The notes under the pieces are model-generated. The model was not told the DNA's origin and ran no database searches. It saw only the letters and a program-made list of their open reading frames with translations. 64,000 bases of DNA from Capitulum mitella (taxonomy: Eukaryota; Arthropoda; Thecostraca; Pollicipedomorpha; Pollicipedidae). The DNA is taken from the NCBI GenBank assembly GCA_030062745.1, contig CP099847.1, forward strand, positions 1,782,304 to 1,846,303, read 5' to 3'. The position numbers were made by a program, and so were the translations under genes. Positions within the stretch are counted from its first letter, which is position 1. Each line of letters starts with the position of its first letter. Shown piece after piece: positions 18,232 to 64,000 of the stretch.

Positions 18232-20570
18232 CTTGGTTATTTGGGACTGATAGCTTTTGAAAGTGTTCGAGGTTTACAGCGTGTAAAATGTTTAGCCATA
18301 CATAGCAAACCCATTAGCAACTTGGAAATATGTTGCCATCACCTTCTCAAAAGTTAGCAATAACGGATGGCAAGCAACGGCCTACGGCATCTAAAAACGA
18401 TGGACAATGTTTACCAAATCAACTTCTTGCCACATGCGTTCAACTCTGAAAACAACATTGCCTCTCACTTCGGGTAAGGCACTTGTTTTGAAGCGGCTCG
18501 GCCGCGCGCCGCTCACGTGCCGGAGTTTGCCTCCTTCGATCGAGTCGTCTTCACACTGGGTCCCAAGTGAAACAGCTGGTACCGCGGACTGCCGAAATGG
18601 AGCAGGGACTGCGGCCACGCGAGATTTGGGCTGAACTCCCCGAGCGGCGAAAATTGGCCGAGGCCGAGTTGTTTACAAGAGCGATGCTCCTAAATCTTTC
18701 AAACACAAGGCGCCCTCGGCCGTCCCGCGATTCAGAGTCTGTCCCAGAAAGAAAAGCGCTGCCGGCCCAATGAAAGATTAATTGAGCCTAAGAAACGATT
18801 ACTCCGAAAAACGGAAATGTTTTTCTACGCCCAGTCGCGTGAACCGCGAGGCCAAGCAAACGTCTGAAAAGTGAGAAGAAGTTGAATACGTGAACTGGAA
18901 CTCGCTCAGCACTCGTCACGAGGTACCTCCGAGAGGGGTATCGGCTGCGGCAGACGCCGGCCGAGCCCAGGTCTGGCGCGGAGTTGGGGCGGCAGCCAGC
19001 CGGCCCGGAACACCGGCCGGCTGCCGTCCCGGCCCGGTGCCATCAGAGGGATCAGCCCGGACGGCCTCCGGCAGACGGCGCTGACGAGTCTCGGAGCCGG
19101 CCGCCGCCGTCCCGAGGCCGTGGATCAGGCCGACGAGGTCGGATCGTCGTCGGCGCTCCGGCGGGCGCCCGTCGTCGGCGCGACTCCCGGCCGGGGTCCG
19201 GACCGTCGGACGAGGGGCGCGGAGAATGGGACGCAGCCGGCTCCGGAGCGGCGGCCGACGGGAACCGTGCGGCTGGCGCGGCGCGGCCTCCACCGCAGCC
19301 GGCGTCATGGCGTGGGTGATGACGCGGTCTTCTACAAAAACCTCAGACGCCAGCAGCAATTTACCGCGCTTAAGTGATCTTCAGTTCCCTTCTCTGGTTG
19401 ATTAGCGTTTGGGTCCAACCACAAACAGCCAAGATGAGGTATCAAAAAATGCTCACAAATACCGTTGGCAGTGTTTTCCTTGGCACACCTCAGACCACAG
19501 TGGGGTGATTGCCGTCACTGCAAACATCTTGAAAGCGATCAAATGTTTGCGCGCAAACGTCCGAAGCGTGAGCACCATGAGGCCACACTGGATGGCTGAC
19601 GTTGCTCCTTCCGCATATCGGCATTGCCCGTAATGACTGCTAGTCAGTATAGGCGATCGTCATTAGTGGTCAGTTCTTTGGACACTGTCGGGCGTTTCAT
19701 GTCAAATTATCTGAAACGTTCAATAGCTTCTAAGATACTTAACGGGTGATAAAGAAGATTTCTACCAAGGATGTCTGCAAATGCATTCGTTCTTCCTTCT
19801 GAGCTGAAACAGTCCGAACCACAACAATTCAAGGGGCGTCTTTGCGCTTGGCATGCAATGGACATCACACACGTCACATCATCACATGCCAAAAGATATG
19901 CCGGGGTGATCCTCAGCAGGCAGAGGAACATCCGCAACATTCGTCCGTGATTCTGGCTGTGATCAACACGAAGTTCACTTGAGAGCGACATTGTTTTCTC
20001 GGTCACTTGCGTCCAAAACGGTTTTTGGTAAAGCTGGCAAACCCACCAAATTTAAACCGATGATGGATTTGAGAAACATACGGACTTCATTCGGCCACTG
20101 CCAGCATGACCAACGTGACACGGCAAAGCCTTCCAACGACCCTAATCTTCTGCTCGAGGTCATTCCCACTTTTTAATCCGGACTGTACAGAGGCACCTTG
20201 ATGACGCCAACACTTTTTCCATTCCCCAGCGTCACTCAAAACGAACTGTGAGCCGTACCCGTCACCAATCCAAAACAAAACAGAAACACCAGCATCTGAG
20301 TGACCCAGATAGACTTCACACAGACTATATGAGCCCCCAAAAAACAGTCAGAAGCATGACCTTTTAAATTCAAGCTATATCCTGATTCCGTAGGTCTATC
20401 CCCAACACAAACACACCCATGAGGACCATGTCATCAGAGGAGATTCGCCGCTCGCCTCGGCTGTTCCGGGTCGGAACGAGGCCAGCGCCATGGATCCGGG
20501 GCGAGCCGCCGGTCGAGGACAATCAGCTGCCGGTGGACGCCTCCGCGCTGTGGCACTGGGCCGAGGACGG

Positions 20571-21665
20571 TCATCTGGCGGTGGACGCCGCCGCGCTGTG
20601 GGACCGGTGGCTGGCGAGGATAGTCATCTGGCGGTGGACGCCGCCGCGCTGTGGGACCGGTGGCTGGCGAGGACGGTCATCTGGCGGTGGGCGTCGCCGC
20701 GCTGTGGGACCGGTGGCTGCCGAGGACGGTCATCTGGCGGTGGACGCCGCCGCGCTGTGGGACCGGTGGCTGGCGAGGATAGTCATCTGGCGGTGGACGC
20801 CGCCGCGCTGTGGGACCGGTGGCTGGCGAGGACGGTCATCTGGCGGTGGGCGCCGCCGCGCTGTGGGACCGGTGGCTGCCGAGGATAGTCATCTGGCGGT
20901 GGGCGCCGCCGCGCTGTGGGACCGGTGGCTGGCGAGGACGGTCATCTGGCGGTGGGCGCCGCCGCGCTGTAGGACCGGTGGCTGCCGAGGATAGTCATCT
21001 GGCGGTGGACGCCGCCGCGCTGTGGGACCGGTGGCTGGCGAGGATAGTCATCTGGCGGTGGGCGCCGCCGCGCTGTGGGACCGGTGGCTGGCGAGGATAG
21101 TCATCTGGCGGTGGGCGCCGCCGCGCTGTGGGACCGGTGGCTGCCGAGGACGGTCATCTGGCGGTGGACGCCGCCGCGCTGTGGGACCGGTGGCTGGCGA
21201 GGATAGTCATCTGGCGGTGGACGCCGCCGCGCTGTAGGACCGGTGGCTGGCGAGGACGGTCATCTGGCGGTGGACGCCGCCGCGCTGTAGGACCGGTGGC
21301 TGCCGAGGATAGTCATCTGGCGGTGGACGCCGCCGCGCTGTGGGACCGGTGGCTGGCGAGGACGGTCATCTGGCGGTGGACGCCGCCGCGCTGTAGGACC
21401 GGTGGCTGGCGAGGACGGTCATCTGGCGGTGGACGCCGCCGCGCTGTAGGACCGGTGGCTGCCGAGGACGGTCATCTGGCGGTGGACGCCGCCGCGCTGT
21501 GGGACCGGTGGCTGGCGAGGATAGTCATCTGGCGGTGGACGCCGCCGCGCTGTAGGACCGGTGGCTGGCGAGGACGGTCATCTGGCGGTGGACGCCGCCG
21601 CGCTGTAGGACCGGTGGCTGCCGAGGACGGTCATCTGGCGGTGGGCGCCGCCGCGCTGTGGGACT
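20571..21665. repeat. 53-bp VNTR, copy 1 (21 units)
   Basis: Twenty-one units of 53 bp, each starting TCATCTGGCGGTGG, with a degenerate unit just before. Units vary at a few fixed places: GGACG/GGGCG, TGTGGG/TGTAGG, GGCGAGG/GCCGAGG and GACGG/GATAG. Because 53 is not a multiple of 3, the reading frame rotates through all three frames every three units. This produces long but meaningless open frames. Confidence 0.97.
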
Positions 21666-24600
21666 GGCGCCGGCCGAACGAGCCGTCCCGGCGCCGAGAT
21701 TGAACCGGCCGAACATTAATTCCGCGGCCATCGAGCGGTGCCCGGCTGCGGCCCGCCATTCAGCCGGGCCGCACCTGTTGTTTCCGGCCGACGCGCTGCG
21801 GAATTGGGCCGCCCTGCCACCCCCCCCCCACGCCGCCCCCGGTCACGAAGCCGCACACGGCGCCACCACGAGGGGAGGCTCCGTGGCCGGCGGTTCGCCC
21901 GGGCTTCACGGCAGATGGACGCGTCTTGATATGGACCAGTGGAGGACCGGGGAGAACCTCCTCTGTGTGCCTTCGTGGATGTGTTTCGGGTGGGGTGGAC
22001 CCCCTTTTCCTACTGCTGGAGTGGTAGGCAGGATTGCCTTTTCATGTCCATGTGATCCAGTTCTATTCATCTTTTTCATCAATTTCACATCTTATTTCCC
22101 TTTTTGATCTTATTTCTACAGAATATACCACTCCGAGGTCATCTTTTCATCCTTTATGTCGTCAGTGATTACCTAGGCCTTGTAAGCAAGCCAAAACAAA
22201 CCACCAGATTTTTCATGTTGTCGGCTGGTTGATTAGTGGTGAGGACTGAGGAGGGACTCTGAATATTTATGCGTTCCGCAAAGTTTGTCTTTTTTTGCAG
22301 AACGTCATAATGTGGGACAACAAAAACAGCACAGAAATTTCCGTCGACATCTTTTTCTGAATTAATTACTGTAGTCGGGCAGTCTTTTCCAGAGCGAACC
22401 GCTGTGGTTATGCCAGCAACATCCGTCTCAAGTGCAACTAGAAAACACACAAGTCGGTTAGGGTTTCGGAACGTCTGGAGAATGGATATTAGCTGGTAGG
22501 TCAAAGTTTAAATGCTGACTCATTTTCATCATGCATTATTTTGCTGCAGTGAACAACGCATGCCATTGTTTTTAGTTTCTCCCTTAACATCGATGTAATG
22601 TCTGAAACAAGAAACTCGGAGATATTAATTTGACATACTGGATTATAGCATCATCTTAGCCGAAAATGACGGACCTGTTTTTAACGCACGACCGAGACAA
22701 CCAATCATTCTGCTTTTTCGCAACCGCCTCGCGCTGCAGCCAAAAAACCTGACAACTTAACAGGGCACCAACTCGTTGTCAATACGGAAGACAGGAGGCC
22801 AAATTGGTGTGGCGGCCACCGTCGAAGAGGGCCGCTTCCGCGCTCAGCGGCGCGGCCGACCGGACCGGGAATTTGATCGAAATCGATACCAATCTTTCCG
22901 CAAAATGGAGAGGGGGCCCGAGCGCCGGCAGGCTTCCGAACGGAGCGAAACAGAAGGTTAGTGGGCCATAGGCATTAGGCCATCTGGCGAATCCAGAGCG
23001 GACTATGCCGCCGCCGACGGCATATGGAGCAGTCGGAGCCGGCGAGAAAAATATGGCTCTTCCTCAGCGAAGCATCAAATAAGCGCTGTCGGTGGGCGCG
23101 CTCGGCTGATCCACCAGCAGAGAGCTGGAGCGACGCGCTCCGAACCCTCTCCAGACGGAACGGGGCGGCAGACACCAAACGAGGCGCCTCCCTCGCAGGA
23201 GACTAATGGTACCGCTGATCGAGCCCGGCAAAAATAGAACAGAAATCTCCTTTGCCGCACGAGTTATTTGCAGCGTAATGCATCGTTGTATATTTATTTC
23301 GTCCCTTTTACACGTGACCAGATGTATGATAATGCAGCAGCTGCTATAACAAAAAACGGAGGACTGGCCAGAGGAGAAAGAGACGAGGAAGATGCAAGCA
23401 ATACGATCTCAGTGCACAAGACTCGTACAGGACAGAAATTAGCTGAGGGGCCACTAAAGACAGCGGCATGCCCGTAATGGGAGACAATCCATGAATAGGT
23501 CACGTCTCATTGATGTGAAACATGTCCACGTCATTTCCGCGTCTGAGTTACGTTTGGCCTGTAGCAGAAATGGCCGGAAATTCTTGTGCAAAACACTGTT
23601 AGGTAGCACGAAAGTTCTGCTAGCCTTGACTTCAACAGCACCGCAAAGTTGCTGTGATGGTAAGAAGGATAGGGGAACAGATATTTACACTCCAGCAGCC
23701 CAGTCTCGAAGGCCGTTGGTCGATGGGTCCCGAAAGACGCACCGTGTCCGACTGGGCCGAAAGGATCTTCGGCCAGACCGGATGCCGATGTCCTGGTAGG
23801 AAATTGAGATGTCCCAGATGACTAGTCGCGGTGACGGATGGTCGCGTCGTTGTACTAGTAGTGCCCGGTCTCTCAGGCAGTGTCCGCATGACCCCAGCTG
23901 GGATGTCGGAAGACTGGTGTTTTTGTTTCAAAAGCTCGGACGTTAGACGCTCCATGTTTTTTCCGCCGTGTAGCTCCGGAATCAAAAGATGCAGGGTCGT
24001 GAAATTTCCAGTTCTCATCGATCTTATCGGACGGAGACGAAGTCGACTTAAAAAAATATATAATACCGGAAGCATGTCTGAATAAATGTGCCCCGCCAAA
24101 TTAAAACTAAAAAGTAAACCAGCGAGGCGCGATGATTAAACAATGGAAAATGTAACCGGCGCCGTTAAAAAAATCAACATTGGTTTGCATTGGAGTTTTT
24201 CCTCTCGTTCTCCCTAGCATGGTGTTTTTCATTAATTAACTTAATGATCTCCTTTAGCGACATTCACACAGCAGTCTGACAAGATGACTGTGTTTGGCAC
24301 TCTTGCGTTTCGAGTTTTTTCTTTTTAAAGACGATTTAAGGTCCTCGCACAGCCAGTTCAAGTTGCAATAAAGCAAGACGAACGACGTTTCCAATGACAA
24401 TTTAGCGACGTCCAGGAGATCAAGTGGATATTCACACATCTAGCAGGTAGCAACTTACACGTAGAAGGGCACAATAAGGGGATGTCGAGGCAGATATTAA
24501 TCCCATACCATTTGTTTGAAACCCAGTATGAGGTCGGATTGAATAAATTGTCTCGAAATGTGCCAGTAAGTAACCTTTTGGGCCGCGGAAATCCTCTTGA

Positions 24601-27128
24601 TTTCTTCCCTATCATGAACCATATTTTCCCTACAGCGCGGCTGACATCCTCAGATTTCACTTGTCGAGCAGGCAAGTCCTGCAGATAGACATCCAAAGAA
24701 CAACTCGCTAAAATAGTTAGGAAGATTTCAGCTCGGCAGTTTTCCCCGCAACTTTTACAAATGGATCCGAATCGATTACTGAACCTGTGCGACGAAATGC
24801 ACCATTGCACCGTTTTGCCATCGTGACCGTAACAGTGTTAGTAAACATGCATGTAACAAATCAAATATTTTCCATTTGTTCTTCCTTGGCTGGATAGGGA
24901 GGCTCGACGCGTTTTGGGAATGAGTTCAACTAGATACCTTCGGCTTTGCCATTCCTGAATTTAGTCGGTACAGATAATATCGGTGACTGCAAATGCGCTT
25001 TGGTCCTGTCGTTGTGTGTGGTACTACAGGTTTCGCGATAAGAATGCGTTCGCTGGCAGACGCATGGCTGGATATTCCGAAAACTGCTAGAGGGGTGTGA
25101 GTTTCCAGCTAGAATCCCAGACAATTCTTTCCACTCATTGCCATCGGTCTAATGTTAAAATCTCTGGAGAGTGAAATTCTAGATCCTTCTATTCCCTCAG
25201 CCCCGAATCTCCAGCCGTAGGATCTCCAGCTCAGCGTTTTCGTCGGGATCTCGTTGCTGGCATAACAGGCTGGTGGATCTCTTCGTCGTTGGAGACCGGC
25301 TGATACAGAAGCCCTATGGCCGTCGGGCCGAACTGGTGGACGATTTTTCTTCCGGTGCCACTGGCGCGACCCGCTAATCAGCTGACTGCTGAGACTAAAC
25401 CGGCGCGCCGGTTTACGTGACCCGACTGAAATCGCCCCGGGCAATCAAAGCTCAGCGAAAAGAAACCGAGGCCGGCCTGCAGATGACCAGCAATGTTTGG
25501 ACCCGTTTGACCGGACCCAGAGTCCGACTTCGGAGGCGACCCCACTCAACTGTCAGCGCTGAAGTTAGGACAGGAGCGGGTACGGAGCAGACGGTTAAAA
25601 GAGAATGGGTCAAATATTTTCTGCGTTTACATATTCAGATTTGATCAATCAAAATCAGGAACAAAATGGGCATTGTCTTTCTTCCATGAACTCGAAAGAC
25701 CTGTTGCCAATCGTTATATTCCGCAACAAGATGAATAAAGAAACAAAGCTTGTCCTATTCTGCTTATCTTACAGGATTTCCATGCGCAGCTGCGTCATTA
25801 ATCTAACATAATAATTATTAAGGCAAACATAATTATTAATCTTGAAAATCAATATCGCACTTGAAAACAGACCCTTCAAATTGCGGGAAGAAAAAGAACA
25901 TCCCACGTTCATCCCGATTTTGTTTGACCATGGGATCTGTTTGGAGATACAACCTGCTGAGCTGATCAGTTTCTCAGAACCACGGGCACTCGACAAGTAG
26001 TGCAGCCTCGTTTGGCCAACGTCGTCACGTGACCGCAGAAGGCCGACCATCACTGTCGGTGGCTATTCTGATGTTCGGCTCTCATAAACGGGCTGCAGAT
26101 CCGGCGGTGTCCGTCCGACATCGTCCATCCGTTGTCGGTAATCTGCCGGCGGGTGTGCTGATTTACCGCGTTGCGCTGATGTACTGCGATAATCACTGCG
26201 GCCCGCCCCCGGCTTAACGGGTCGGGCTGGACGCCCCAGGGTCGGGTCGGCGTTTCTCGCGCGGTAGGAAGCCGGATTTTCCGCCCGATATTCCGCAAAT
26301 AAATCGGCGAGGAAAGTTAACTTGCTGATCCGTTATTCTTCTTCAGAATTTCCAAGCCGAGGGTGCCCTTTTAGACCGTCTTGTCTTGGACGTGATCTCG
26401 TGTTTGACCAGTGACCGAATGTAAACGCAGATGCTTAGTGCGTGAATGAAGATTGCAAAGTTTGAAACGTGAACAATGCGGAAGCGCCACCAGCAATTGA
26501 AATCCACCCTGTCTGCCCAACAGTTGGAGTTCACTATATCATTCGGAACCACGCTCGGACCAAGAGATAAATTCGAGATTCGGCCGTATCTCACCAGAAA
26601 GACAAAAGTCATAGACCAAAAACGAACGCGGCGTCCGGCCGACGGCACGGCCGGGTGGCTCAAGTTCCATGAGTCTGCCGCGGCCGAGCCGTGACAGGAC
26701 TACACGGCAGTCCCTGCTCACGCGCAGAGCGTCGTAAATCGAGCGCAAGGCCTGTACATTAAGGGGATCGGTCGCAGTCTGAGAGGTGCGGCGAGCACCT
26801 GCATTCCAAGACGCCCGGACGCCGAGCGGGAGCGATGCGGCACGGTACTCGGCAGATCGGCTGTAAAGCCGTAACGCTCCGAAATCCCGGGCCGAAATGT
26901 TTCGCTACAATGCCAGCCTGAACTGACAGGCCTGCCGCGTCCAGCCCTGTTCAAAATGGACGGCGGATCTCTGTTTAAGAGCCGTCGAAGATCGCGGACC
27001 TATGAGATTTCGAAGTGGTCGTAATGGCCAGCCAGAACACTGCTAGTGTTGAACGAGCGATCCTGAAAACAGCATTTCTCAATGCATTAAAAATTAATAT
27101 GTATATCAATCTACATACATATCCGTCC

Positions 27129-27147
27129 ATATATATGTATATATGTA

Positions 27148-27223
<76 letters not shown>
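27129..27223. repeat. (TA)n microsatellite, copy 1
   Basis: About 95 bp of TA with a few TG interruptions at the left. The corresponding tract in copy 2 is about 51 bp. Confidence 0.95.
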
Positions 27224-27225
<2 letters not shown>

Positions 27226-27925
27226 ACTGAAAGATGACTCATCCGGTTTTTCAAAACGAAAAAAAACACTGCCTAAATTTAAGGAAAATGTGTATCTGTT
27301 ATGGTAACGATGACTTTTCCCCTTATTTCTTCACAAGATCACAGCAAGTCACAGCAATATGTGTAGCTGGTTTGCACCTAGATACATTTCCAACAGCAAC
27401 CGGCGCATCTGCCTCGCGACGGCCACGACGAGAGCTTCCGCAGCCCGGCGTTTGGAGATGCATTTGACACGTCGCCGGCGCGCTGGAGGGAGGGACGTCG
27501 CCGCGGGCTGGAGGGAGGGACGGCGCCGCGCCGGCGCTGCCAGAAATCCATTACCGCGCTGGCATCTGGCGGCTTCCGCGGGCGGCGAGCGGCGGCCGGC
27601 CGCCGTCCCGCCGACGGCTGCCTCCCGGGTCTCGAGGCTCGGGGTCCCACGGCTCGGGGCCAGCGGGACCCGGCTGACCGACTGAGTAGACCGACTGCCG
27701 CACCCCCCGGTCCAAATCGCCCGGCGCTCGCCGGGTACGAGGCGCGTCCGGGAACGGCTAGCAGCCGGCCTGCCTTCCGCGTCTGGCGCTGTGAGCCATT
27801 AGCCGCACCCCCACAGAAGTTCACGTGCGATCGACGGAGCGCCGAGGCAGCTGGGAAGTTTGTCGAGCTCCGGCTCCTGTTATTTGCCTAGGGCTGAAGA
27901 GCGCGCTCCTGGTCATGAGCCGCAT

Positions 27926-27954
27926 TCTCTCTCTCTCTCTCTCTGTGTGTGTGT
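27926..27954. repeat. (CT)n(GT)n dinucleotide tract, copy 1
   Basis: A CT run followed by a GT run. In copy 2 (62311-62332) the same place is almost entirely GT. Confidence 0.9.
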
Positions 27955-28929
27955 TCCTCTCCTTCCTTGCATGCGACGTACCCGCCTCGATAATGTCGGC
28001 TGAGTTAATCGCGTGGTTGATTTAGACGTCAGCCTTCTGTGAAGCTAACTGTCGTCCCTACATCGGAATTTTGCAACAGCGGAATTTGTTCAAATAACTA
28101 CGGTTTTATCACTGTTGTACGGTATTATGAAGTGGTGGACGAGAATGGCCCAAATTTCTGTGAGTGTGACGGCTGGATTTGGCAGTGATAAAGTTCACGT
28201 GAGGTTGCTGCACGACTTTACGATGAATTTGCGCGAAATGCTAATTTTCAGCTCGGCCTGAACTGTGGCAGCTGACGCAGAGTTCACTCAAACAAGGGAA
28301 GGCATTCAGGCAAAAAAATCCAGCCGAAGTTCTCCTCGTTTTGAGCAGTCTGGCTCAACGGCTGAAAATCTGATAATTCCAGGCCATATGTAATATGCAT
28401 GCTGGACTTTGCCAATATGCAGGAGCTGATTCAGATTTAGCGACGTAACTTATCTCGTGGTAGGCAAGTCGGAACTCATTTTCGAGGTTTCTTAGAATTT
28501 ACTGGCACCTCGAGCCAAGCACTGCTCTTTCGTCATATTCTTACCTCGACTGCGGCGTAGCTGTTTTCGTGGCGCCGTCATAGTTGGCAACTAAATAATT
28601 CTGTGGTCTAAGAAGCAGCTGGAAATATAATAAGAAGTGCCAGAACGCAACGAAAAATTCGGCGACAAATTCTGCAACGTTCAGAAAAAGTACCTATCGT
28701 GGACGTCGGTGAGCGGAACACGGACACCAGCGCGTCACTACATTGTTATGGATTGCTGTCGGCCTGCTGAGTCCATGCTCTTGCATCCGACCAGCACCTT
28801 CACCAGCGCTCCACGATCGTTCGTTCGTTCGACGATCGTTGCACGTTTCCATACAACGTCAGGCGCATTTTCTGCCAGCTACGCTGAAAACTCTGCGTCG
28901 AACGAGACGACCGGGATGCAGAGCCGGAA

Positions 28930-29063
28930 CGCCAGCTGACCAAGGATGACTGCGGCGGATAACGGCGTGGCGTAACAGAGCCGGACCGCCAGCTGACCAA
29001 GGATGGCTGCGGCGGAGAGCGGCGTGGCGTAACAGAGCCGGACCGCGGCGGGAGCGGGGTGGC
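28930..29063. repeat. 57-bp VNTR, copy 1 (about 2.3 units)
   Basis: Units starting CGCCAGCTGACCAAGGATG at 28930 and 28987, then a partial unit. The same repeat is expanded in copy 2. Confidence 0.9.
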
Positions 29064-29350
29064 CGCGGACGGCAGCCGGGACGGAGTGCCACTGATCACC
29101 GCCGACGGCGTGAGACCGCGCTGATTAACGGAGCTGACCCAATAGGCGCCGCCGGCGGCGGTGTCGGCCCGCTGCCCCGGCTGACAAACGGAACTGACCC
29201 CGATCGCCGGGCCGTCGGCTGTGGAGGTCCGTCCGTGTCCGACGCCGGCCGCTCGCGGCGGAACCGCCGGGGCGCCGGCCGTCACCTGGCCTCGGGACGG
29301 TCGGAGTGAACGGCGTCCAGGCATCGTGTGACTCCCCCGGCGTCCCACCG

Positions 29351-31619
29351 GAGCTCGTGTCCGGCCTGGTGACGTCTGCCGGCTGCTGCGTCAGCTGACG
29401 TCACCCCGCCTCCTGCCAGCGGGAGGGGGGGGGGCTCGGCAGGCGGTCCCCGGGGTCCTCCCGGCTGCCTCAGCCGGCAGTCGAGCCGGACCGGCGTCAA
29501 ATTGCCAGTGACGTCCGCAGCGGGTCCGGCTACTTACCGGCCGAGCCTGGTGTCGGCTGGAGGCGGCCGTGTCCCTGGTGTTCGCTGGAGGCGGAGATGT
29601 CTGCCGTGCCAGGTCCACCGGCACAGCCACCAGCGCGGAGTCCGCGACACATGCAACAGCCATGGTGACGGCCTGCATGCAAACTTGCCTGCATGCGACT
29701 TTGTGGATTATACTAATCGCCGCAGACAGAAATTAGTATGTCCTTGCCCGAGAAGGAAATAATAAAGCAATTCAGCAAAAAAAAACTACAAATCTGTCTA
29801 TAATTCATCGCTTGCGTTCTACGGCTACCTAACTCTAAAGACTGCAGTACCGATAACCGCGACTGACATGATTCATACGGCATAGTTCATTATTTTTTTG
29901 CGGTCTTTAAAACCAAAGGGGTCCCTGAGGCCATCCGTAACATGTTTTATGTTGCAGTGTTTGCAAAAGGTCAATTCTGGTAGCGTATTCCTCAACATGG
30001 CAATTGGTTTCGTAAAACGGCATTCCACTACGTAGCTCGAAGTTACCGAATCTTCCCTAATAATTTATCAAGGCATGTGTCACAAACTATGGAGTACATT
30101 TAGCCTCTCATGTTCTGGAAACCAGCGGCGGCGCCACGGGTTCAGAACGACAGAAGCAAATATTTTCGAGTTTTTCCTTGCCATGCGCTCCCATTGGGAT
30201 AATGCTCGAGCTAAAGGAGAGGGGGAGCGGCTGGTATTCCCGATGCGCCCCCCCCCCGTCGCACTAGCAATGTTACCACCATTGCTAGAAGCTATTAACG
30301 TCGATAGCCCGGCTCTCACCAATTGGCATAGATTACCATTAGCCGGCCTCCGACAGAAATATATATGGAAATGGAAAACTTCCAGCGCCACGGGACGGGA
30401 GCAACATGAAACCATTGAAAGTTCCTGCTTCACGAGCGTCGTCACATGCAAAGGTCAATCACTGTTGCCTGCTTGGTTACCTACTACTTATCGACCAGCT
30501 GCCGACCAGGGAAAACCATGCCAATTTCGTGGCTTATAAGAAGATCACTTGACAGGGACCACGGCTTTGATAAGTGCTTAATTATCGGACGAAGCGTGAT
30601 TTCACTGTTAGCTGTAAACGATCTTACTGGACAAAATTCCGCTTCATAGGACGTCTCAGTAATCAGTAAGCAAATTATTAATCCGGAAGAGGAAAACATT
30701 TGGCAGAATCGCGGTCACTCTAATCATGCAATCCACTGCATCGAGAAAAGTAGCCCAAGGTCGAGTTAACGTACTCGCCCCCTCTGTAGAGACGCGACGT
30801 CACGGCTCTCGGGTTCGACCGATTTCTGCACCGCATCGCATACGCCCGCGCTAAAACGAACGACACACCGGGCTATGTAATGCAGCCGGCGCATTCGGCA
30901 GTATTTCTGGAGGACACTATTGCCGCCGCCGATAATGGATCGGTCGCGTCGGGCCAAAATCGATGCGGGTGAATAATGTGCGTTGCCCGGGCCTGTCGCC
31001 GGCGCGCGTCACCCGGCAGACGCCATCGACCGCATCCTGCGCGGCATCACAATTAGGCCGACTGTCGCTGGATTTGGGCAGCGCCGCGACGCGCCGATAG
31101 CCTTGGCAACCCAGGAAAGGCGTGAGCAAAGTGCTGGGCATCGGCAAGGCTGGAAGCGCTGCACAGGAGTGCGCGAAGCGTCGGCAGCGCGAACGAAACT
31201 GACAGCGTCACGCGGAACTGAGAGAGGTGTTGTGCAACGAAAAACACGTGACGGTATTACGGGACGGAACAAAGCGCTGCGAAGCCGGAGAGTGAAATCT
31301 TTACAACGGCGCCAGCGAAGTGCATGGAGCGTCAATAAAACTGGCCGCCTCACACGCGAGTGAGCAGCGCCGAGAAAAAAGGAAAAAGAAACGCCTACAG
31401 CATCAACAGTCTCACATGGCAGCGGACGAATGGATCGACAAAAGCGAACCCGACGAAGCTGCTGCACAGGCAGACGAGAGGAAGTGGGTGCGTCTCCAGT
31501 CTCGTGAACCGAGTGAGAAGATCGACATCGCGCGTCACCTCGACTCTTCTCAGTGCCCCTCCACCGTTCCCGCCGAGTGACCGCTGACCCGCGACCACTG
31601 ACTGGCCCACAGCCGCAGA
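29351..31619. other. Non-coding stretch without recognised gene
   Basis: Starts with a GC-rich island (to about 29650, with a TGACGTCA at 29396-29403), then AT-rich DNA, then another GC-rich stretch from about 30960. Several open frames exist, but none carries a domain I recognise. Confidence 0.5.
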
Positions 31620-48825: not shown

Positions 48826-48863
<38 letters not shown>

Positions 48864-50819: not shown

Positions 50820-51725
50820 TCATTTCTTATGAAATTTCTCCGGCGTGTTGTTGATCTTAGCATTGTAATACTTGCTTACCACATTTGACCATAGCGGGCT
50901 TACCATGGAAAAGAGCGAAGGACGCCCCATGGCATTAATAATATGCATTACACTTCCTACCACATGGCTTAAAATCCCGCCGCCTTCAGCTCCCGAGATG
51001 ATTTCTTTTTTATCGATTTCAATTGCAAAATCATTGAGCTGTTTTGTATTCAACCAGACTATCAAGGCATTCCTGAGATTCTGGGCTCGGGGGCAATACC
51101 AGAACTTATGTAGAATGTCGTCTCGCTCTGGACAATGCTCACACATATCTGTGTCTTTAAGTTTCATTTTTTTAGCGAACTATTAGTGGCTACGGTTCTA
51201 GTAATTATTTTGTAATGGGTGCCTCTGTATTGAATGGGGATGCTTTAAGGTTTACATATACACCAGGCCATTAATTCCCTGAAATTCTCGTTCCCACGCA
51301 CCTTTCCATATACTGACCTGGTCTTTTGCTTTGTTTTTTGTTATAACGTTGTACAACTGAGATGTACGGGTCTTCTTATCCACAATAAAACTAACAATAG
51401 GATCCATGCTGGGTTCGACAATCTTCTTCCTTTCTCTTGCTTGCTTCCGCTTTGCAGGCAAACCTTCTAGAAGGGCACCATAGTCTAGAAATGTTGCCTG
51501 GATTCTATATGATGTTTTAAGTTCCTCGTATACCATAAGAGATCCATCTGGGTTTAGCAGGTCATTTAGTGTTCTAATGCCTCTCCTGAACCAGTCCTTT
51601 ATCCTAGTCTTCTTGGTGAAATCCGAGAAAAAGAGAGAGGAACAGTTATATCGTCAATGTAATTACCATTTTCTAGTTTTCTTTGAAATCTGCTTAACCT
51701 AAAAAAACCTATTTCCAGCCAGAAT
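50820..51725 (-). pseudogene. Non-LTR retrotransposon relic, C-terminal end of reverse-transcriptase ORF
   Basis: Read on the minus strand from about 51725: LENGNYIDDITVPLFFSDF, then KKTRIKDWFRRGIRTLNDLL, NPDGSLMVYEELKTSYRI and, after an interruption, MKLKDTDMCEHCPERDDILH KFWYC. The order (RIKDWF...DLL, EEL, then a CxxC...H...C zinc-knuckle-like motif) is that of the C-terminal part of L1/Tx1-like ORF2 proteins. Between 51252 and 51168 the frame is broken by stops. The matching residues (QYRGTHYKIITRTVATNSS) lie in another frame, shifted at a run of seven A. The endonuclease and polymerase core are absent, so this is a 5'-truncated dead copy. Confidence 0.75.
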
Positions 51726-52697
51726 TTTCAGCCCGGAGTGACCTCTGAGGTCAGAGTTCCGGGTCATAAAATGTCGCCGATTTTTACAACATAATCAAAA
51801 CGCCCATAACTCGGTGATAGATTGTCGCAGAAAGATGCGATTAACGTCATTCAAAAGATACATGTTCCAGCTTTGAAAAATAAGTTTATTGTTTTCGGTG
51901 ACCTTGGGATGACCTTTGACCTCACGAAGTCACATGGAAAATTTTCGGTTTGAGCAATGTTTGCCAGCCATGGTTTTTAAGAAAATGTAGCACAATACGT
52001 CTACAAGAATCTGCAACAAGCGTGGCAAAAAAAACATTTTTCAACAAACTGACACTTTTCAGATATCTTAAATTTTGTGTTCCCAAGTGGCGTTTGATAA
52101 ATATGCCCCGAGGCTATTTGATGGATGTTGTTTAAATTCGTGCTTCCCTTTCTCCAACTGTTCCACAGTTTAATGTCCACGACGTCCTGCGTGCCTACTA
52201 CACATCAGCCTTATTTTGAATTGCTCGATCGGAAATATCGAAGGTCATGACACCCCACCACCAATCGACCCCTGTCATCCAGACCTGACATACCCGTCTT
52301 AGGTGTGGGAACATCTCAGAAACTGGGGGTGCCAAAACCAGTTCTGAAGTCATTTCTTTCCATGCATCTCCATAAGGTTCAGCATTCTCGGAAAGCGGGG
52401 GTGCCATAGCACCCATGGACCCCCCGATTCTACGCCTATGATACCTGTTCTTCATATTTGTACGAAAGTGAGTCAGTTGGGTGTTCTTAGTCCTTTAAAC
52501 TAACCCAAACAACTTTAGTCGAGCATCGGGGCCTTTCTAAGGTCAAACGTTGACTTCGACTGACCTTGAATTGCCTATTTTGACCTCGGGCCATTCGAAG
52601 GTTTTTTTGGGGCGCGCATTTCGAATTCCACGCCCATTTTTCACTCGTCGAGTCATTTCTGTTCATTCCATGTTCTCGATCAAAGAAAGTCAGTTTT
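51726..52697. other. Repeat-derived DNA before the gap
   Basis: Contains TGACCTCTGAGGTCA (about 51741-51757), GACCTTGGGATGACCTTTGACCT (split motifs near 51900) and more AGGTCA sites at about 52540-52590, like the interior of the TTAA elements, but no clear ends. A poly-G/C part at about 52395-52430 (GGGGGTGCC, GGACCCCCC) resembles a MITE end. No gene. Confidence 0.4.
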
Positions 52698-53197
52698 NNN
52701 NNNNNNNNNNNNNNNNNNNNNNNNNNNNNNNNNNNNNNNNNNNNNNNNNNNNNNNNNNNNNNNNNNNNNNNNNNNNNNNNNNNNNNNNNNNNNNNNNNNN
52801 NNNNNNNNNNNNNNNNNNNNNNNNNNNNNNNNNNNNNNNNNNNNNNNNNNNNNNNNNNNNNNNNNNNNNNNNNNNNNNNNNNNNNNNNNNNNNNNNNNNN
52901 NNNNNNNNNNNNNNNNNNNNNNNNNNNNNNNNNNNNNNNNNNNNNNNNNNNNNNNNNNNNNNNNNNNNNNNNNNNNNNNNNNNNNNNNNNNNNNNNNNNN
53001 NNNNNNNNNNNNNNNNNNNNNNNNNNNNNNNNNNNNNNNNNNNNNNNNNNNNNNNNNNNNNNNNNNNNNNNNNNNNNNNNNNNNNNNNNNNNNNNNNNNN
53101 NNNNNNNNNNNNNNNNNNNNNNNNNNNNNNNNNNNNNNNNNNNNNNNNNNNNNNNNNNNNNNNNNNNNNNNNNNNNNNNNNNNNNNNNNNNNNNNNN
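52698..53197. other. Assembly gap (500 N)
   Basis: Exactly 500 unknown bases, a conventional placeholder length for a scaffold join of unknown size. Confidence 1.
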
Positions 53198-55536
53198 CTT
53201 GTTATTTGGGACTAATGGCTTTTGAAAGTGTTCGAGGTTTACAGCATGTAAAATGTTTAGCCATACATAGCAAACCCATTAGCAGCTTGGAATTATGTTG
53301 CCATCACCTTCTCAAAAGTTAGCAATAACGGATGACAAGCAACAGCCTACGGCATCTACAAACAATGGACAGTGTTTACCAAATCAACTTCTTGCCACAT
53401 GCGTTCAACTCTGAAAACAACATTGCCTCTCACTTCGGGTAAGGCATTTGTTTTGAAGCGGCTCGGCCGCGCGCCGCTCACGTGCCGGAGTTTGCCTCCT
53501 TCGACCGAGTCGTCTTCACACTGGGTCCCAAGTGAAACAGCTGGTACCGCGGACTGCCGAAATGGAGCAGGGACTGCGGCCACGCGAGATTTGGGCAGGA
53601 CTCCCCGAGCGGCGAAAATTGGCCCAGGCCGAGTTGTTTACAAGAGCGATGCTCCTAAATCTTTCAAACACGAGGCGCCCTCGGCCGTCCCGCGATTCAG
53701 AGTCTGTCCCAGAAAGAAAAGCGCTGCCGGCCCAATGAAAGATTAATTGAGCCTAAGAAACGATTACTCCGAAAAACGGAAATGTTGTTTTTCTACGCCC
53801 AGACGCGTGAACCGCGAGGCCAAGCAAACGTCTGAAAAGTGAGAAGAAGTTGAATACGTGACTTGGGACTGGCTCAGCACTCGTCACGAGGTACCTCCGA
53901 GAGGGGTATCGGCTGCGGCAGACGCCGGCCGAGCTCAGATCTGGCGCAGAGTAGGGGCGGCTGCCGGCCGGCCCGGAACACCGGCCGGTTGTCGTTCCGA
54001 CCGGGGGCCATCAGAGGGATCAGCCCGGACGGCCTCCGACGGACGGCGCTGACGAGTCTCGGAGCCGGCCGCCGCCGTCCCGAGGCCGTGGATCAGGTCG
54101 ACGAGGTCGGATCGTCGTCGGCGCTCCGGCGGGCGCCCATCGTCGGCGCGACTCACGGCCGGGGTCCGGACCGTCGAATGAGAGGCGCGAGAATGGGGTA
54201 CAGCCGGCTCCGGAGCGGCGGCCGACGGGAACCGTGCGGCTGGCGCGGCGCGGCGCGGCCTCCACCGCAGCTGGCGTCATGGCGTAGGTGATGACGCGGT
54301 CTTCTACAAAAATCTCAGACTCCAGCAGCAATTTACCGCGCTTAAGTGATCTTCAGTCCCATTCTCTGGTTGATTAGCGTTTGGGTCCAACCACAAACAG
54401 CCAAGATGAGGTATTAAAAAATGCTCACAAAGACCGTTGGCAGTGGTTTCCTTGGCACACCTCAGACCACAATGGGGTGTCGGCCGTCACTGCAGACATC
54501 TTGAAAGCGATCAAGTGTTTGCGCGCAAACGTCCGAAGCGTGAGCACCATGAGGCCACATTGGACAGCTGACGTTGCTCCTTCCGCATATCGGCATTGCC
54601 TGTAATGACTGCTAGTCAGTATAGGCGATAGTCATCAGTGGTCCATTCTTTGGACACTGTCGGGCGTTTCATGTCAAATTATCTGAAACTTGCAATGGCT
54701 TCTAAGATACTTAACGAGTGATTAAAAAGATTTCTACCAAGGATGTCTGCAAATGCATTCGTTCTTCCTTCTGAGCTGAAACAGTTCGAACCACAACAAT
54801 TCAAGCGACCTCTTTGCGCTTAACATGCAATGTACATCACACACGTCACATCATCACACATCAAAAGATATGCCGGGGTGATCCTCAGCAGGCAGAGGAA
54901 CACCCGCAACATTCGTCCGTGATTCTGGCTGTGATCAACACGAAGTTCACTTGAGAGCGACATTGTTTTCTTGGTCACTTGCGCCTAAACCAAATCACAC
55001 TGGCAAACCCACCAAATTTAAACCGATGATGGATTTGAGAAACATACGGACTTCATTCCGCCACTGCCAGCATGACCAACGTGACACGGCAAAACCTTCC
55101 AACGACCCTCATCTTCTGCTCGAGGCCACTCCCACTTTTTAAACCGAACTGTACAGAGACCCCTTGATGACGCCAACACTTTTTCCATTCCCCCAGCGTC
55201 ACTCAAAACGAACTGTGAGCCGCATCCGTCACCAATCCAAAACAAAATAGAAACACCAGCATCTGAGTGACCCAGATAGACTTCACATAGACTATATGAG
55301 CCCCCAAAAAACAGTCAGAAGCATGACTTTTTAAATCAAGCTATATCCTGATTCCGTACGCCTATCCCCAACACAAACACACCCATGAGGACTATATCAT
55401 CAGAGGAGATTCGCCGCTCGTCTCGGCTGTTCCGGATCTGAACGCGGCCAGCGCCATGGATCCGGGGGGAGCCGCCGGTCGAGGACAATCATCTACCGGT
55501 GGACGCCTCCGCGCTGTGGCACTGGGCCGAGAACGG

Positions 55537-56195
55537 TCATCTGGCGGTGGACGCCGCCGCGCTGTGGGACCGGTGGCTGGCGAGGATAGTCATCTGGCGG
55601 TGGGCGCCGCCGCGCTGTAGGACCGGTGGCTGCCGAGGATAGTCATCTGGCGGTGGGCGCCGCCGCGCTGTGGGACCGGTGGCTGGCGAGGATAGTCATC
55701 TGGCGGTGGGCGTCGCCGCGCTGTAGGACCGGCGTCGACCGAGGATAGTCATCTGGCGGTGGGCGCCGCCGCGCTGTGGGACCGGTGGCTGCCGAGGATA
55801 GTCATCTGGCGGTGGACGCCGCCGCGCTGTGGGACCGGTGGCTGGCGAGGATAGTCATCTGGCGGTGGGCGCCGCCGCGCTGTAGGACCGGTGGCTGCCG
55901 AGGATAGTCATCTGGCGGTGGGCGCCGCCGCGCTGTGGGACCGGTGGCTGGCGAGGATAGTCATCTGGCGGTGGGCGCCGCCGCGCTGTGGGACCGGCGC
56001 CGACCGAGGATAGTCATCTGGCGGTGGGCGCCGCCGCGCTGTGGGACCGGTGGCTGGCGAGGATAGTCATCTGGCGGTGGGCGTCGCCGCGCTGTGGGAC
56101 CGGTGGCTGGCGAGGATAGTCATCTGGCGGTGGGCGCCGCCGCGCTGTAGGACCGGCGGCTGGCGAGGATAGTCATCTGGCGGTAGGCGCCGCCA
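55537..56195. repeat. 53-bp VNTR, copy 2 (12 full units plus a partial)
   Basis: Same unit as the array at 20571-21665. All 12 unit junctions read GAGGATAG, and several units have a CGTCGACC, CGCCGACC or CGGCTGG variant not present in copy 1. Stop codons in rotating frames prevent long open frames here. Confidence 0.97.
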
Positions 56196-59100
56196 GAGAT
56201 TGAACCGGCCGAACATTAATTCCGCGGCCATCGAGCGGTGCCCGGCTGCGGCCCGCCATTCAGCCGGGCCGCACCTGTTGTTTCCGGCCGACGCGCTGCG
56301 GCATTGGGCCGCCCTGCCACCCCACCCCCCCCCCCCCCGGTCACGGAGCCGCACACGGCGCCACCACGAGGGGAGGCTCCGTGGCCGGCGGCTCGCCCGG
56401 GCTTCACGGCAGATGGACGCGTCTTGATATGGACCAGTGGAGGACCGGGGAGAACCTCTTCTGTGTGCCTTCGTGGATGTGTTTTGGGTGGGGTGGACCC
56501 CTTTTTCCTACTGCTGGAGTGGTAGGCAGGAGTGTCTTGTCATGTCCATGTGATTCAGTTCTATTCATTTGCAATTTCACATCTTATTTCTCTTTTTGAT
56601 CTTATTTCTACAGAATATACCACTCCGAGGTCATCTTTTCATCTTTTATGTCGTCAGTGATTACCTGGGGCTTGTAAGCAAACCAAAACAAACCACCAGA
56701 TTTTTCATGTTGTCGGCTGGTTGATTAGTGGTGAGGACTGAGGAGGGACTCTGAATATTTATGCGTTCCGCAGAGTTTGTTTTTTTTTTGCAGACCGTTA
56801 TAATGTGGGACAACAAAAACAACACAAAAATTTCCATCGACATCTTTTTCTGAATTAACAACTGTAGTCGGGCAGTCTTTTCCAGAGTGAACCGCTGTGG
56901 TTATGCCAGCAACATCCGTCTCAAGTGCAACTAGAAAAGACACAAGTCGGTTAGGGTTTCAGAACCTCTGGAGAATGGATATTAGCTGGTAGGTCGAAGT
57001 TTAAATGCTGACTCATTTTCATCACGCATTATTTTGCTGCAGTGAACAACACATGCCATTGTTTTTAGTTTCTCCCTTAACATCGATGTAATGTCTGAAA
57101 CAAGAAACTCGGAGATATTAATTTGACATACTGGATTATAGCATCATCTTAGCCGGAAATGACGGACCTGTTTTTAATGCGCGACCGAGACAACCAATCA
57201 CCCCGCGTTTTCTCAACCGCCTCGCACTGCAGCCAAAAAACCTGACAACTTAACAGGGCACCGACTCGTTGTCAATACGGAAGACAGGAGGCCAAATTGG
57301 TGTGGCAGCCACCGTCGAAGAGCGCCGCTTCCGCGCTCAGCGGCGCGGCCGACCGGACCGGGAATTTGATCGAAATCGATACCAATCTTTCCGCAAAATG
57401 GAGAGGGGCCCGAACGCCGGCGGGCTTCCGAACGGAGCGAAACAGAAGGTTAGTGGGCCATAGGCATTAGGCCATCTGGCGAATCCAGAGCGGGCTATGC
57501 CGCCGCCGACGGCATATGGAGCAGTCGGAGCCGGCGAGAAAAATATGGCTCTTCCTCAGCAAAGCATCAAATAAGCGCTGTCGGTGGGCGCGCTCGGCTG
57601 ATCCACCAGCAAAGAGCTGGAGCGGTGAGCTCCGAACCCTCTCCAGACGGGACGGGGCGGCAGACACCAAACGAGGCGCCTCCCTCGCAGGAGACTAATG
57701 GTACCGCTGATCGAGCCCGGCAAAAATAGAACAGAAATCCCATTTGCCGCACGAGTTATTTGCAGCGTAATATATCGTTGTATATTTATTTCGTCCCTTT
57801 TACACGTGACCAGATGTATGATAATGCAGCAGCTGCTATAACAAAAAACGGAAGACTGGCCAGAGGAGAAAGAGACGAGGAAGATGTAGGCAATACGATC
57901 TTAGTGCACAAGACTCGTACAGGACAGAAATTAGGTGAGGGGCCACCAAAGACAGCGGCATGCCCGTAATGGGAGGCAATCCATGAATAGGTCACGTCTC
58001 ATTGATGTAAAACATGTCCACGTCATTTCCGCGTCCGAGTTACGTTTGGCCTGTAGCAGAAATGGCCGGAAATTCTTGTGCAAAACACTGTTAGGTAGCA
58101 CGAAAGTTCTGCTAGTCTTGACTTCAACAGCACCGCAAAGCTGCTGTGATGGTAAGAGGGATAGGGGAACAGATGTTTACGCTCCAGCAGCCCAGTCTCG
58201 AAGGCTGTTGGTCGATGGGTCCCGAAAGACGCACCGTGTCCGACTGGGCCGAAAGGATCTTCGGCCAGACCGGATGCCGATGTCCTGGTAGGAAATTGAG
58301 ATGTCCCAGATGACTAGTCGCGGTGACGGATGGTCGCGTCGTTGTACTAGTAGTGCCCGGTCTCTCAGGCAGTGTCCGCATGACCCCATCTGGGATGTTG
58401 GAAGACTGGTGTTTTTGTTTCACAAGCTCAGACGTTAGACGCTCCATGTTTTTTTCCGTCGTGTAGCTCCGGAATCAAAAAATGCAAGATCGTGAAATTT
58501 CCAGTTCTCATCGATCTTATCGGACGGAGACGAAGTCGACTTAAAAAAATATATAATACCAGAAGCATGTCAGAATAAATGTGTCCCACCAAACTAAAAC
58601 TAAAAAGTAAACCAGCGAGGCGCGATGATTAAACAATGGAAAATGTAACCGGCGCCGTTAAAGAAATCAACATTTGTTTGCGTTGGAGTTTTTCCTCTCG
58701 TTCTCCCCAGCGTGGTGTTTTTCATTAATCAACTTAATGATCTCCTTTAGCGACATTCACACAGCAGTCTGACAAGATGACTGTGTTTGGCAATCTTGCA
58801 TTTCGAGTTTTTTCTTTTTAAAGGCGATTTAACGTCCTCGCACAACCAGTCCAAGTTGCAATAAAGCAAGACGAACGTCGTTTCCAATGACAATTTAGCG
58901 ACGTACAGGAGATCAAGTGGATATTCAAACATCTAGCAGGTAGCAACTTACACGTAGAAGGGCACAATAAGGGGACGTCGAGGCAGATATTAATCCCATA
59001 CGATTTGTTTGAAATCCAGTATGAGGTCGGACTAAATAAATTGTCTCGAAATGTGCCAGTAAGTAACCTTTTGGGCCGCGGAAATCCTCTTGATTTCTTC

Positions 59101-61582
59101 CCTATCATGAACCATATTTTCCCTACAGCGCGGCTGACATCCTCAGATTTCACTTGTCGAGCAGGCAAGTCCTGCACATAGACGTCCAAAGAGCAACTCG
59201 CTAAAATAGTTAGGAAGATTTCAGCTCGGCAGTTTTCCCCGAAACTTTTACAAATGGGTCCGAATCGATTACTGAACCTGTGCAACGAAATGCACCATTG
59301 CACCGTTTTGCCATAGTGACCGTAACAGTGTTAGTAAACATGCATATAACAAATCAAATATTTTCCATTTATTCTTCCTTGGCTAGATAGGGAGACTCGA
59401 CGCGTTTTGGGAATGAGTTCAACAAGAGACTTTCGGCTTTGCCATTCCTGAATTTAGTACAGATGATGGTACAGATGATATCGGTGACTGCAAATGCGCT
59501 TTGGTCCTGTCGTTGTGTGTGGTACTACAGGTTTCGCGATAAGAATGCGTTCGCTGGCAGACGCATGGCTGGATATTCCGAAAACTGCTAGAGGGGTGTG
59601 AGTTTCCAGCTAGAATCCCAGACAATTCTTTTCACGCATTGCCATCGGTCTAATGTTAAAATCTCTGGAGAGTGAAATTCTAGATCCTATTCCCTCAGCC
59701 CCGAATCTCCAGCCATGGGATCTCCAGCTCAGCGTTGTCGTCGGGATCTCGTTGCTGGCATAACAGGCTGGTGGATCTCTGCGTCGTTGGAGACCGGTTG
59801 ATACAGAAGCCCTATGGCCGTCGGGCCGAGCTGGTGGACGATTTTTCTTCCGGTGCCACTGGCGCGACCCGCTAATCAGCTGACTGCTGAGACTAAACCG
59901 GCGCGCCGGTTTACGTCACCCGACTGAAATCGCCCCGGGCAATCAAAGCTCAGCGAAAAGAAACCAAGGCCGGCCTGCAGATGACCAGCAATGTTTGGAC
60001 CCGTTTGACCGGACCCAGAGTCTGACTTCGGAGGCGACCCCACTCAACTGTCAGCGCTGAAGTTAGGACAGGAGCGGGTACGGAGCAGACGGTTAAAAGA
60101 GGATGGGTCAAATATTTTCTGCGTTTGCATATTCAGATTTGATCAATCAAAATCAGGTGCAAAATGGGCGTTGTCTTTCTTCCATGAACTCGAAAGACCT
60201 GTTGCCAATCGTTATATTTCGCAACAAGATGAATAAAGAAACAAAGCTTGTCCTATTCTGCTTATCATAAAGGATTTCCATGCGCAGCTGCGTCATTAAT
60301 ATAACATAATAATTATTAGGGCAAACATAATTATTAGTCTTGAAAATCAATATCGCACTTGAAAACAGACCCTTCAAGTAGCAGGGAGAAAAAGAACATC
60401 CCACGTTCATCCCGATTTTGTTCGACCATGGGGTCTGTTTGGAGATACAACCCGCTGAGCTGATCAGTTTTTCAGAACCACGGGCACTCGACAAGTAGTG
60501 CAGCCTCGTTTGGCCAACGTCGTCATGTGACCGCAGAAGGCCGGCCATCACTGTCGGTGGCTATTCTGATGTTCGGCTCTCATAAACGGGCTGTAGATCC
60601 GGCGGTGTCCGTCCGACATCGTCCATCCGTTGTCGGTAATCTGCCGGCGGGTGTGCTGATTTACCGCGCTGCGCTGATGTACTGCGATAATCACTGCGGC
60701 CCGCCCCCGGCTTAACGGGTCGGGCTGGACGCCCCAGGGTCGGGTCGGCGTTTCTCGCGCGGTAGGAAGCCAGATTTTCCGCCTGATATTCCGCAAATAA
60801 ATTGACGAGGAAAGTTAACTTGCTGATCCGTTATTCTTCTTCAGAATTTCCAAGCCGAGGGTACCCTCTTAGACCGTCTTGTCTTGGACGTGATCTCGTG
60901 TTTGACCAGTGACCGAATGTAAACGCTGATGTTTAGTGCGTGAATGAATAATGCAAAGTTTGAAATGTGAACAGCGCGGAAGCGCCACCAGCAATTGAAA
61001 TCCACCCTGTCTGCCCAACAGTTGGAGTTCAGTATATCATTCGGAACCACGCTCGGACCAAGAGATAAATTCGAGATTCGGCCGTATCTCACCGAAAAGA
61101 CAAAAGTCACAGTCCAAAAACGAACGCGGCGTCCGGCCGACGGCACGGCCGGGTGGCTCAAGTTCCATGAGTCTGCCGCGGCCGAGCCGTGACAGGACTA
61201 CACGGCAGTCCCTGCTCACGCGCAGAGCGTCGTAAATCGAGCGCAAGGCCTGTACATTAAGGGGATCGGTCGCAGTCTGAGAGTTGCGGCGAGCACCTGC
61301 ATTCCAAGACGCCCGGACGCCGAGCGGGAGCGATGCGGCACGATACTCGGCAGATCGGCTGTGAAGCCGTAACGCTCCGAAATCCCGGGCCGAAATGTTT
61401 CGCTACAATGCCAGCCTGAACTGACAGGCCTGCCGCGTCCAGCCCTGTTCAAAATGGACGGCGGATCTCTGTTTAAGAGCCGTCGAAGATCGCGGACCTA
61501 TGAGATTTCGAAGTGGTCGTAATGGCCAGCGAGAACACTGCTGGTGTTGAACGAGCGATCCTGAAAACAGCATTTCTCAATG

Positions 61583-61586
<4 letters not shown>

Positions 61587-61637
<51 letters not shown>
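61587..61637. repeat. (TA)n microsatellite, copy 2
   Basis: A pure AT run of about 51 bp at the position of the longer tract in copy 1. DNA flanking it on the right is rearranged or deleted by about 50 bp relative to copy 1. Confidence 0.95.
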
Positions 61638-61639
<2 letters not shown>

Positions 61640-62310
61640 AATCTATATACATATCTGTCCATATAAAAACACTGCCTAAATTTAAGAAAAATGTGTATCT
61701 GTTACGGTAACGATGGCTTTTTCCCTTATTTCTTCACAAGATCACAGAAAGACACAGCAATATGTGTAGCTGGTTTGCACTAAGACACATCCCTAACAGC
61801 AACCGGCGCATCTGCCTCGCGACGGCTTCGACGAGAGCTTGCGCAGCCCGGCGTTTGGAGATGCATTTGACACGTCGCCGGCGGGCTGGAGAGAGGGACG
61901 GCGCCGCGCCGGCGCTGCCAGAAATCCATTACCGCACTTGCATCTGGCGGCTTCCGCGGGCGGCGAGCGGCGGCCGGCCGCCGTCCCGCCGACAGCCTGC
62001 CTCCCAGGTCTCGAGGCTCGGGGTCCCACAGTTCGTGGCCAGCGGGACCCGGCTGACCGACTGAGTAGACCGACTGCCGCACCCCCCCCCCCGGTCCAAC
62101 TCGCCCGGCGCTCTCCGGGTACGAGGCGCGTCCGGGAACGGCTAGCAGCCGGCCTGCCTTCCGCGTCTGGCGCTGTGAGCCATTAACCGCACCCCCCACA
62201 GAAGTTCACGCACGGTCAACGGAGCGCCGAGGCAGCTGGGAAGTTTGTCGAGCTCCGGCTCCTGCTATTTGCCTAGGGCTGAAGAACGCGCTCCTGGTCA
62301 TGGGCCACAT

Positions 62311-62332
62311 TCTCTGTGTGTGTGTGTGTGTG
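62311..62332. repeat. (GT)n tract, copy 2
   Basis: TCTCTGTGTG...TGTG, counterpart of the CT/GT tract at 27926-27954. Confidence 0.9.
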
Positions 62333-63314
62333 TTCCTCTCCTTCCTTGCATACGACGTATCCGCCTCGATCATGTCGGCTGAGTTAATAGCGTGGTTGAT
62401 TTAGACGTCAGCCTTCTGTGAAGCTAACTGTCGTTCCTACATCGGAATTTTGCAACAGCGGAATTTGTTCAAATAACTACGGTTTTATCACTACTGTACG
62501 GTATTATGAAGTGGTGGACGAGAATGGCCCAAATTTCTGTGAGTGTGACGGCTGGATTTGGCAGTGATTAAGTTCACGTGAGGTTGCTGCACGACTTTAC
62601 GATGAATTTGCGCGAAATTCTAATTTTCAGCTCGGCCTGAACTGTGACAGCTGACGCAGAGTTCACTCAAAGCAAGGGAAGGCATTCAGGCAAAAAACCC
62701 AGCCGAAGTTCTCCTCGTTTTGAGCAGTCTGGCTCAACGGCTGAAAATCTGATAATTCCAGGCCATATGTAATATGCATGCTGGACTTTACCAATATGCA
62801 GGAGCTGACTCAGATTTAGCGACGTAACTTATCTCGTGGTAGGCAAGTCGGAACTCATTTTCAAGGTTTCTTAGAATTTACTGGCACCTCGAGCCAAGCA
62901 CTGGTCTTTCGTCATATTCTTACCTCGACTGCGGCGTTGCTGTTTTCGTGGCGCCGTCATAGTTCGCAGCTAAATAATTCTGTGGTCTAAGAAGCAGCTG
63001 AAAATATAATAAACAGTGCCAGAACGCAACGAAAAATTCGGCGACAAATTTTGCTACGTTCAGAAAAAGTACCTATCGTGGACGTCGGTGAGCGGAACAC
63101 GGACACCAGCGCGTCACTACATTGTTATGGATTGCTGTCGTCCTGCTGAGCCCATGCTCTTGCATCCGACCAGCACCTTCACCAGCGCTCCACGATCGTT
63201 CGTTCGTTCGACGATCATTGCACGTTTCCATACAACGTCAGGCGCATTTTCCACCAGCCACGCTTAAAACGCTGCGTCGAAGTCGAACGAGACGACAGGA
63301 ATGCAGAGCCGAAA

Positions 63315-63713
63315 CGCCAGCTGACCAAGGATGGCTGCGGCGGGAGAGGGGTGGCCGTAACGGAGCCGGACCGCGGCGGGAGAGGGGTGGCCGTAACGGA
63401 GCCGAAACGCCAGCTGACCAAGGATGGCTGCGGCGGGAGAGGGGTGGCCGTAACGGAGCCGGACCGCCAGCTGACCAAGGATGGCTGCGGCGGGAGAGGG
63501 GTGGCCGTAACGGAGCCGGAGCGCCAGCTGACCAAGGATGGCTGCGGCGGGAGAGGGGTGGCCGTAACGGAGCCGGAGCGCCAGCTGACCAAGGATGGCT
63601 GCGGCGGGAGAGGGGTGGCCGTAACGGAGCCGGACCGCCAGCTGACCAAGGATGGCTGCGGCGGGAGAGGGGTGGCCGCAACAGAGCCGGACCGCGGCGG
63701 GAGAGGGGTGGCC
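63315..63713. repeat. 57-bp VNTR, copy 2 (about 7 units)
   Basis: Units starting CGCCAGCTGACCAAGGATGG at 63315, 63408, 63465, 63522, 63579 and 63636, with 36-bp partial units after the first and last. Since 57 and 36 are multiples of 3, frames stay open on both strands (up to 278 residues). The encoded 19-residue repeat is Gly/Arg- or Pro/Ser-rich with no recognised domain. Confidence 0.95.
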
Positions 63714-64000
63714 GCGGACGGCAGCTGGGACGGAGTGTCACTGATCACCGCCGACGGCGTGAGACCGCGCTGATTAACGGAGCTGACCCAATAGGCGCCG
63801 CCGGCGGCGGTGTCGGCCCGCTGCCCCGGCTGACAAACGGAACTGACCCCGATCGCCGGGCCGTCGGCTGTGGAGGTCCGTCCGTGTCCGGCGCCGGCCG
63901 TTCGCGGCGGAACCGGCGGGGCGCCGGCCGTCACCTGGCCTCGGAACGGCCGGAGTGAACGGCGTCCAGGCATCGTGTGACTCCCCCCGCCGTCCCACCG

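Follow-up and report, generated by a model that had tools for sequence, protein, structure and literature searches.

A doubled block across an assembly gap in the barnacle Capitulum mitella very probably represents two haplotypes of one locus

Does a block of sequence that occurs twice in the genome assembly of the barnacle Capitulum mitella, on either side of a run of 500 N, correspond to two loci on the chromosome, or to one locus that was assembled twice? The block lies in a stretch of 64,000 nucleotides (hereafter, the window) at C9:1782304-1846303, where C9 is contig CP099847.1 of GenBank assembly GCA_030062745.1 (477 Mb in 16 contigs). We consider it highly probable that the doubled block is a false heterotype duplication, that is, two haplotypes of one locus placed in tandem across the gap.

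To establish the extent of the doubling, the window was aligned with itself along with 30 kb of sequence to its left and 170 kb to its right (C9:1752304-2016303, 264 kb). Coordinates above 64000 are window equivalents, the added right sequence being C9:1846304-2016303. Features are listed in Table 1, in which contig A and contig B denote the sequences to the left and right of the gap.

The original prediction, made from the window, described a collinear block of 11 kb present twice, with the gap as the left edge of copy 2 and with 29351-52697 as unique sequence, suited to serve as a single-copy control. The self-alignment bears out a doubled and collinear block (E = 0 across kilobases, far above chance), with both copies in one orientation along the entire overlap, and it extends the coordinates. 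At the left, the local alignment pairs 18236 onward with 53201 onward, and a global alignment pairs 18232/18233 with 53198, where sequence resumes after the gap, so the left edge of copy 2 is indeed the gap. When the sequence past 64000 is aligned with 29351 onward, collinearity persists and stops where contig A ends, with 78257, the end of copy 2, paired with 52697, the base of contig A that adjoins the gap. The overlap therefore amounts to 34.5 kb of copy 1 and 25.1 kb of copy 2; the extent had appeared to be 11 kb because the window is cut at 64000. Uniqueness holds only for 29860-39145, and elsewhere 29351-52697 is mostly paired with copy 2. Collinear segments join 28921-29793 to 63570-64438, 39143-42398 to 64605-67876, and 42389-52697 to 67948-78257. 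Each inner end of the repeat thus lies within about one base of an edge of the gap. The longest other self-match in the 264-kb stretch, which contains one gap, is 1,536 bases.

Table 1. Coordinates of the doubled block, the gap, and the features in which the two copies differ
Feature	Position	Strand	Remarks
Copy 1, end of left contig (contig A; putative haplotype 1)	18232..52697	+	34.5 kb; aligns to 53198-78257
Assembly gap joining two overlapping contigs	52698..53197	.	500 N; only N run in C9:1752304-2016303
Copy 2, start of right contig (contig B; putative haplotype 2)	53198..64000 in the window	+	Continues to 78257 (C9:1860560)
Segment present in copy 1 only	29860..39145	+	9,286 bp; TACT in copy 2 instead (64604-64607)
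53-bp minisatellite	20514..21664	+	21.8 units; 13.6 units in copy 2 (55480-56194)
57-bp minisatellite	28919..29046	+	2.2 units; 5.7 units in copy 2 (63373-63695)

Genome searches were performed with parts of the copies and with the sequences that flank them. Among the best 40 of 1411 candidates scored, 48000-52697 has two full-length places, namely itself and copy 2 at C9:1855876-1860560; of the 87 matches listed, the remaining 85 are fragments of repeats, the longest about 1.4 kb. With 20000-24000 as the query (5 of 5 candidates scored), the search returned the segment itself, a stretch of copy 2 that matches over 3 kb, and three short matches, none longer than 66 bases. The outer flanks, within the candidates scored (40 of 4733 on the left and 40 of 11567 on the right), are single-copy, as for a heterozygous overlap of contigs. 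On the left, 14600-18231 has no second full-length place among the best 40 candidates, only partial matches, the longest of which cover 405 query bases at 91% and 231 at 97%, both on C3. On the right, 79200-83990 likewise has no second full-length place among the best 40, and its partial matches are mostly to one 1.2-kb repeat. The two left-flank pieces, 14600-15004 and 15000-15230, match C3:5807582-5807962 and C3:5813270-5813500, respectively; these lie about 5 kb apart and are perhaps parts of one dispersed element split by an insertion.

From this geometry, we infer that the two copies are alleles. In the most plausible history, contig A, as far as 52697, would have been assembled from one haplotype, and contig B, whose first base is allelic to 18232, from the other. 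The overlap would then have been missed because the alleles differ by about 4.4% as well as by indels and by a 9.3-kb presence/absence segment. Contig A stops between the arms of an inverted repeat, which may have caused the break. When a scaffolder then set the contigs in order, it would have inserted 500 N between them, which would make one locus look like two on the chromosome. A join of two allelic contig ends would predict the layout observed: each inner end of the repeat falls at the end of a contig, the outer flanks are unduplicated, and the copies differ in structure, for instance by the 9.3-kb segment. The haplotype explanation offered in the original prediction is supported, in that collinearity past 64000 extends to the end of contig A and no further.

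The same layout would result from a genuine and recent segmental duplication in tandem, about 25-34 kb long, if its junction lay unassembled in the gap and one copy later lost or gained 9.3 kb. Such a duplication would agree with copies that are adjacent, head to tail, and in the same orientation, with the two places in the genome for both 20000-24000 and 48000-52697, and with the presence of an overlap at only one of the two gaps examined; moreover, assemblers do break at repeats. However, the assembly has a gap in place of the junction between the copies, and a duplication requires that the assembly broke at this junction with about no junction base left on either side. For a break to fall exactly there, in 264 kb with one gap, would be a marked coincidence. 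Also, long reads would normally be expected to resolve 25-kb copies that are 4.4% apart without a break, and copies that were not resolved would be expected to collapse rather than to appear as two complete copies. We regard this alternative as quite improbable.

Even harder to credit is a mis-join, in which contig B (or A) derives from elsewhere and was scaffolded beside its allele or paralogue because of Hi-C similarity or multi-mapping. Hi-C scaffolding can put allelic contigs next to each other, but neither outer flank has another full-length place among the best 40 candidates for each, and each contig carries the overlap at the end where a true neighbour would have it.

If the copies are haplotypes of one locus, they permit a direct allelic comparison. 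Divergence was measured on the two cleanly alignable parts, which comprise 24,364 aligned bases. These contain 1,065 mismatches (735 transitions and 330 transversions), or 4.37%, and 88 indel events, or 3.6 per kb; the copies had been predicted to be a few percent diverged, and the computed value agrees. Counts of mismatches in 47 intervals of 500 bases have a variance/mean of 2.55, which is above Poisson. This value would be expected from allelic coalescence, and varying constraint would give the same. At its right, contig A becomes less diverged from copy 2, with 14 mismatches in the final 800 columns of the alignment (1.75%, versus 4.4% overall), as expected where an assembly bubble closes. 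For alleles of 66 genes in the barnacle Balanus improvisus, a median divergence of 5.3% and a range of 2-11% have been given (PMC8270832); the 4.37% observed here is to be set beside that median as a value from a different species with its own heterozygosity.

Nearly all of the difference in length between the copies is due to the 9,286-bp segment, whose breakpoints are clean. A mobile element was considered as the cause of this difference and rejected: no target-site duplication was seen at the breakpoints, no inverted repeat joining the two ends of the segment was found, and the content is mixed (a minisatellite, a 241-bp palindrome, and one 1.2-kb repeat). The difference seems better explained by loss of the segment from haplotype 2 than by one insertion into haplotype 1. 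The palindrome is a near-palindrome, 89.7% self-complementary, at 33779-34019. In addition to this segment and the minisatellites in Table 1, copy 2 has 108 AT-rich bases (64432-64539) where copy 1 has 10 (29786-29795). The 53-bp minisatellite is G+C-rich, and long open frames cross the array in more than one reading frame because its unit is not a multiple of three.

The end of contig A (52697, allelic to 78257) falls between two inverted arms, 77271-77852 and 78591-79172. The arms are about 580 bases each, 79% identical, and about 740 bases apart, and the first of them has its counterpart in copy 1 at 51720-52295, to the left of the gap. Relatives of this repeat recur in the genome, several as inverted pairs, among the matches listed for 48000-52697. 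Such an inverted-repeat element may plausibly explain why contig A breaks off where it does. A different, dispersed element of about 1.2 kb occurs at 34752-35968, 80586-81802 (minus strand), 111852-113031 (plus), 145801-147025 (plus), and 181613-182825 (minus), with at least about 40 further matches genome-wide. Its ends are TTAACCCTATTCCCGG...CCGGGAATAGGGTTAA in two of these five copies, and the other three are altered at one or both ends. With inverted termini next to TTAA, it resembles a non-autonomous piggyBac-like transposon.

Genes within the block were sought in several ways. Among 210 open frames in copy 1 (at least 60 amino acids, with at least 50 aligned codons), none gave a convincing coding signal; the frame with the lowest ratio has 6 synonymous versus 2 non-synonymous codon differences. 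The long frames 20386-22104 and 63092-63955 were rejected as genes, as they run through the 53-bp and 57-bp minisatellites. A sample of 20 of the 94 window frames of at least 110 amino acids (15 in copy 1, three of them in the 9.3-kb segment, and five in the left flank) was compared with Pfam and yielded four weak matches (E 0.011-0.086), all under the curated cut-offs. In the window, whose G+C content is near 50%, ARAGORN found no tRNA, and Rfam gave no match at the gathering score. Outside the window, Pfam identified SET with a MYND finger and Chitin_bind_4 (arthropod cuticle), about 17 kb to the left and 57 kb to the right.

A second gap, at C9:35304-35803, is likewise exactly 500 N in length, and gaps of 500 N are what the 3D-DNA scaffolder writes. 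3D-DNA is the scaffolder named in PMC11331182. From 15.3 kb to the left of the second gap to 4.2 kb to its right, only one match was found (1,036 bp, 88.7%), and the sequence 1.8-4.2 kb to the right has no second full-length place in the genome search. A large overlap is therefore present at one of the two gaps examined (304 kb of sequence), and the artefact cannot be called systematic. Near the chromosome start, C9:7800-10151 is a satellite-like tandem array whose nested periods measure about 78, 140, 247, and 326 bases.

On the strength of the geometry of the overlap, the doubled block can almost certainly be put down to an ordinary artefact of assembly. The locus should then count once, although about 25-34 kb of chromosome is at present counted twice. 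Such double counting would inflate statistics on copy number, repeats, and segmental duplications, and would mislead variant calling. At the same time, the pair of copies offers a direct record of how two alleles differ, in substitutions (4.4%), in indel events (3.6 per kb), in a 9.3-kb haplotype-specific segment, and in minisatellite lengths. For C. mitella, 16 chromosomes and 4.1% duplicated single-copy genes have been reported (PMC8416341). In another barnacle with 21.1% duplicated core genes, the authors suspected haplotypes and filtered them (PMC8917513). Duplicated single-copy genes are one of several lines of support given for an ancient genome duplication in barnacles (PMC11331182), and unpurged overlaps would merit checking before such genes are used in this way.

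Two known classes of assembly error provide the closest comparisons. The arrangement of adjacent, collinear copies across an assembly gap is like that of the false heterotype duplications, a term of the Vertebrate Genomes Project, described by Ko et al. (PMC9516828). Haploid read depth, heterozygous k-mers, and discordant read pairs are further marks of this class; the present comparison covers the assembled sequence. The arrangement is also like the heterozygous overlap between primary contigs that purge_dups removes, in which the last part of one contig covers the same sequence as the first part of its neighbour (PMC7203741); no difference from this class is seen in the sequence. According to Guan et al., overlaps of this kind are retained among the primary contigs of highly heterozygous outbred species, for which most insects and marine animals are given as examples (PMC7203741).
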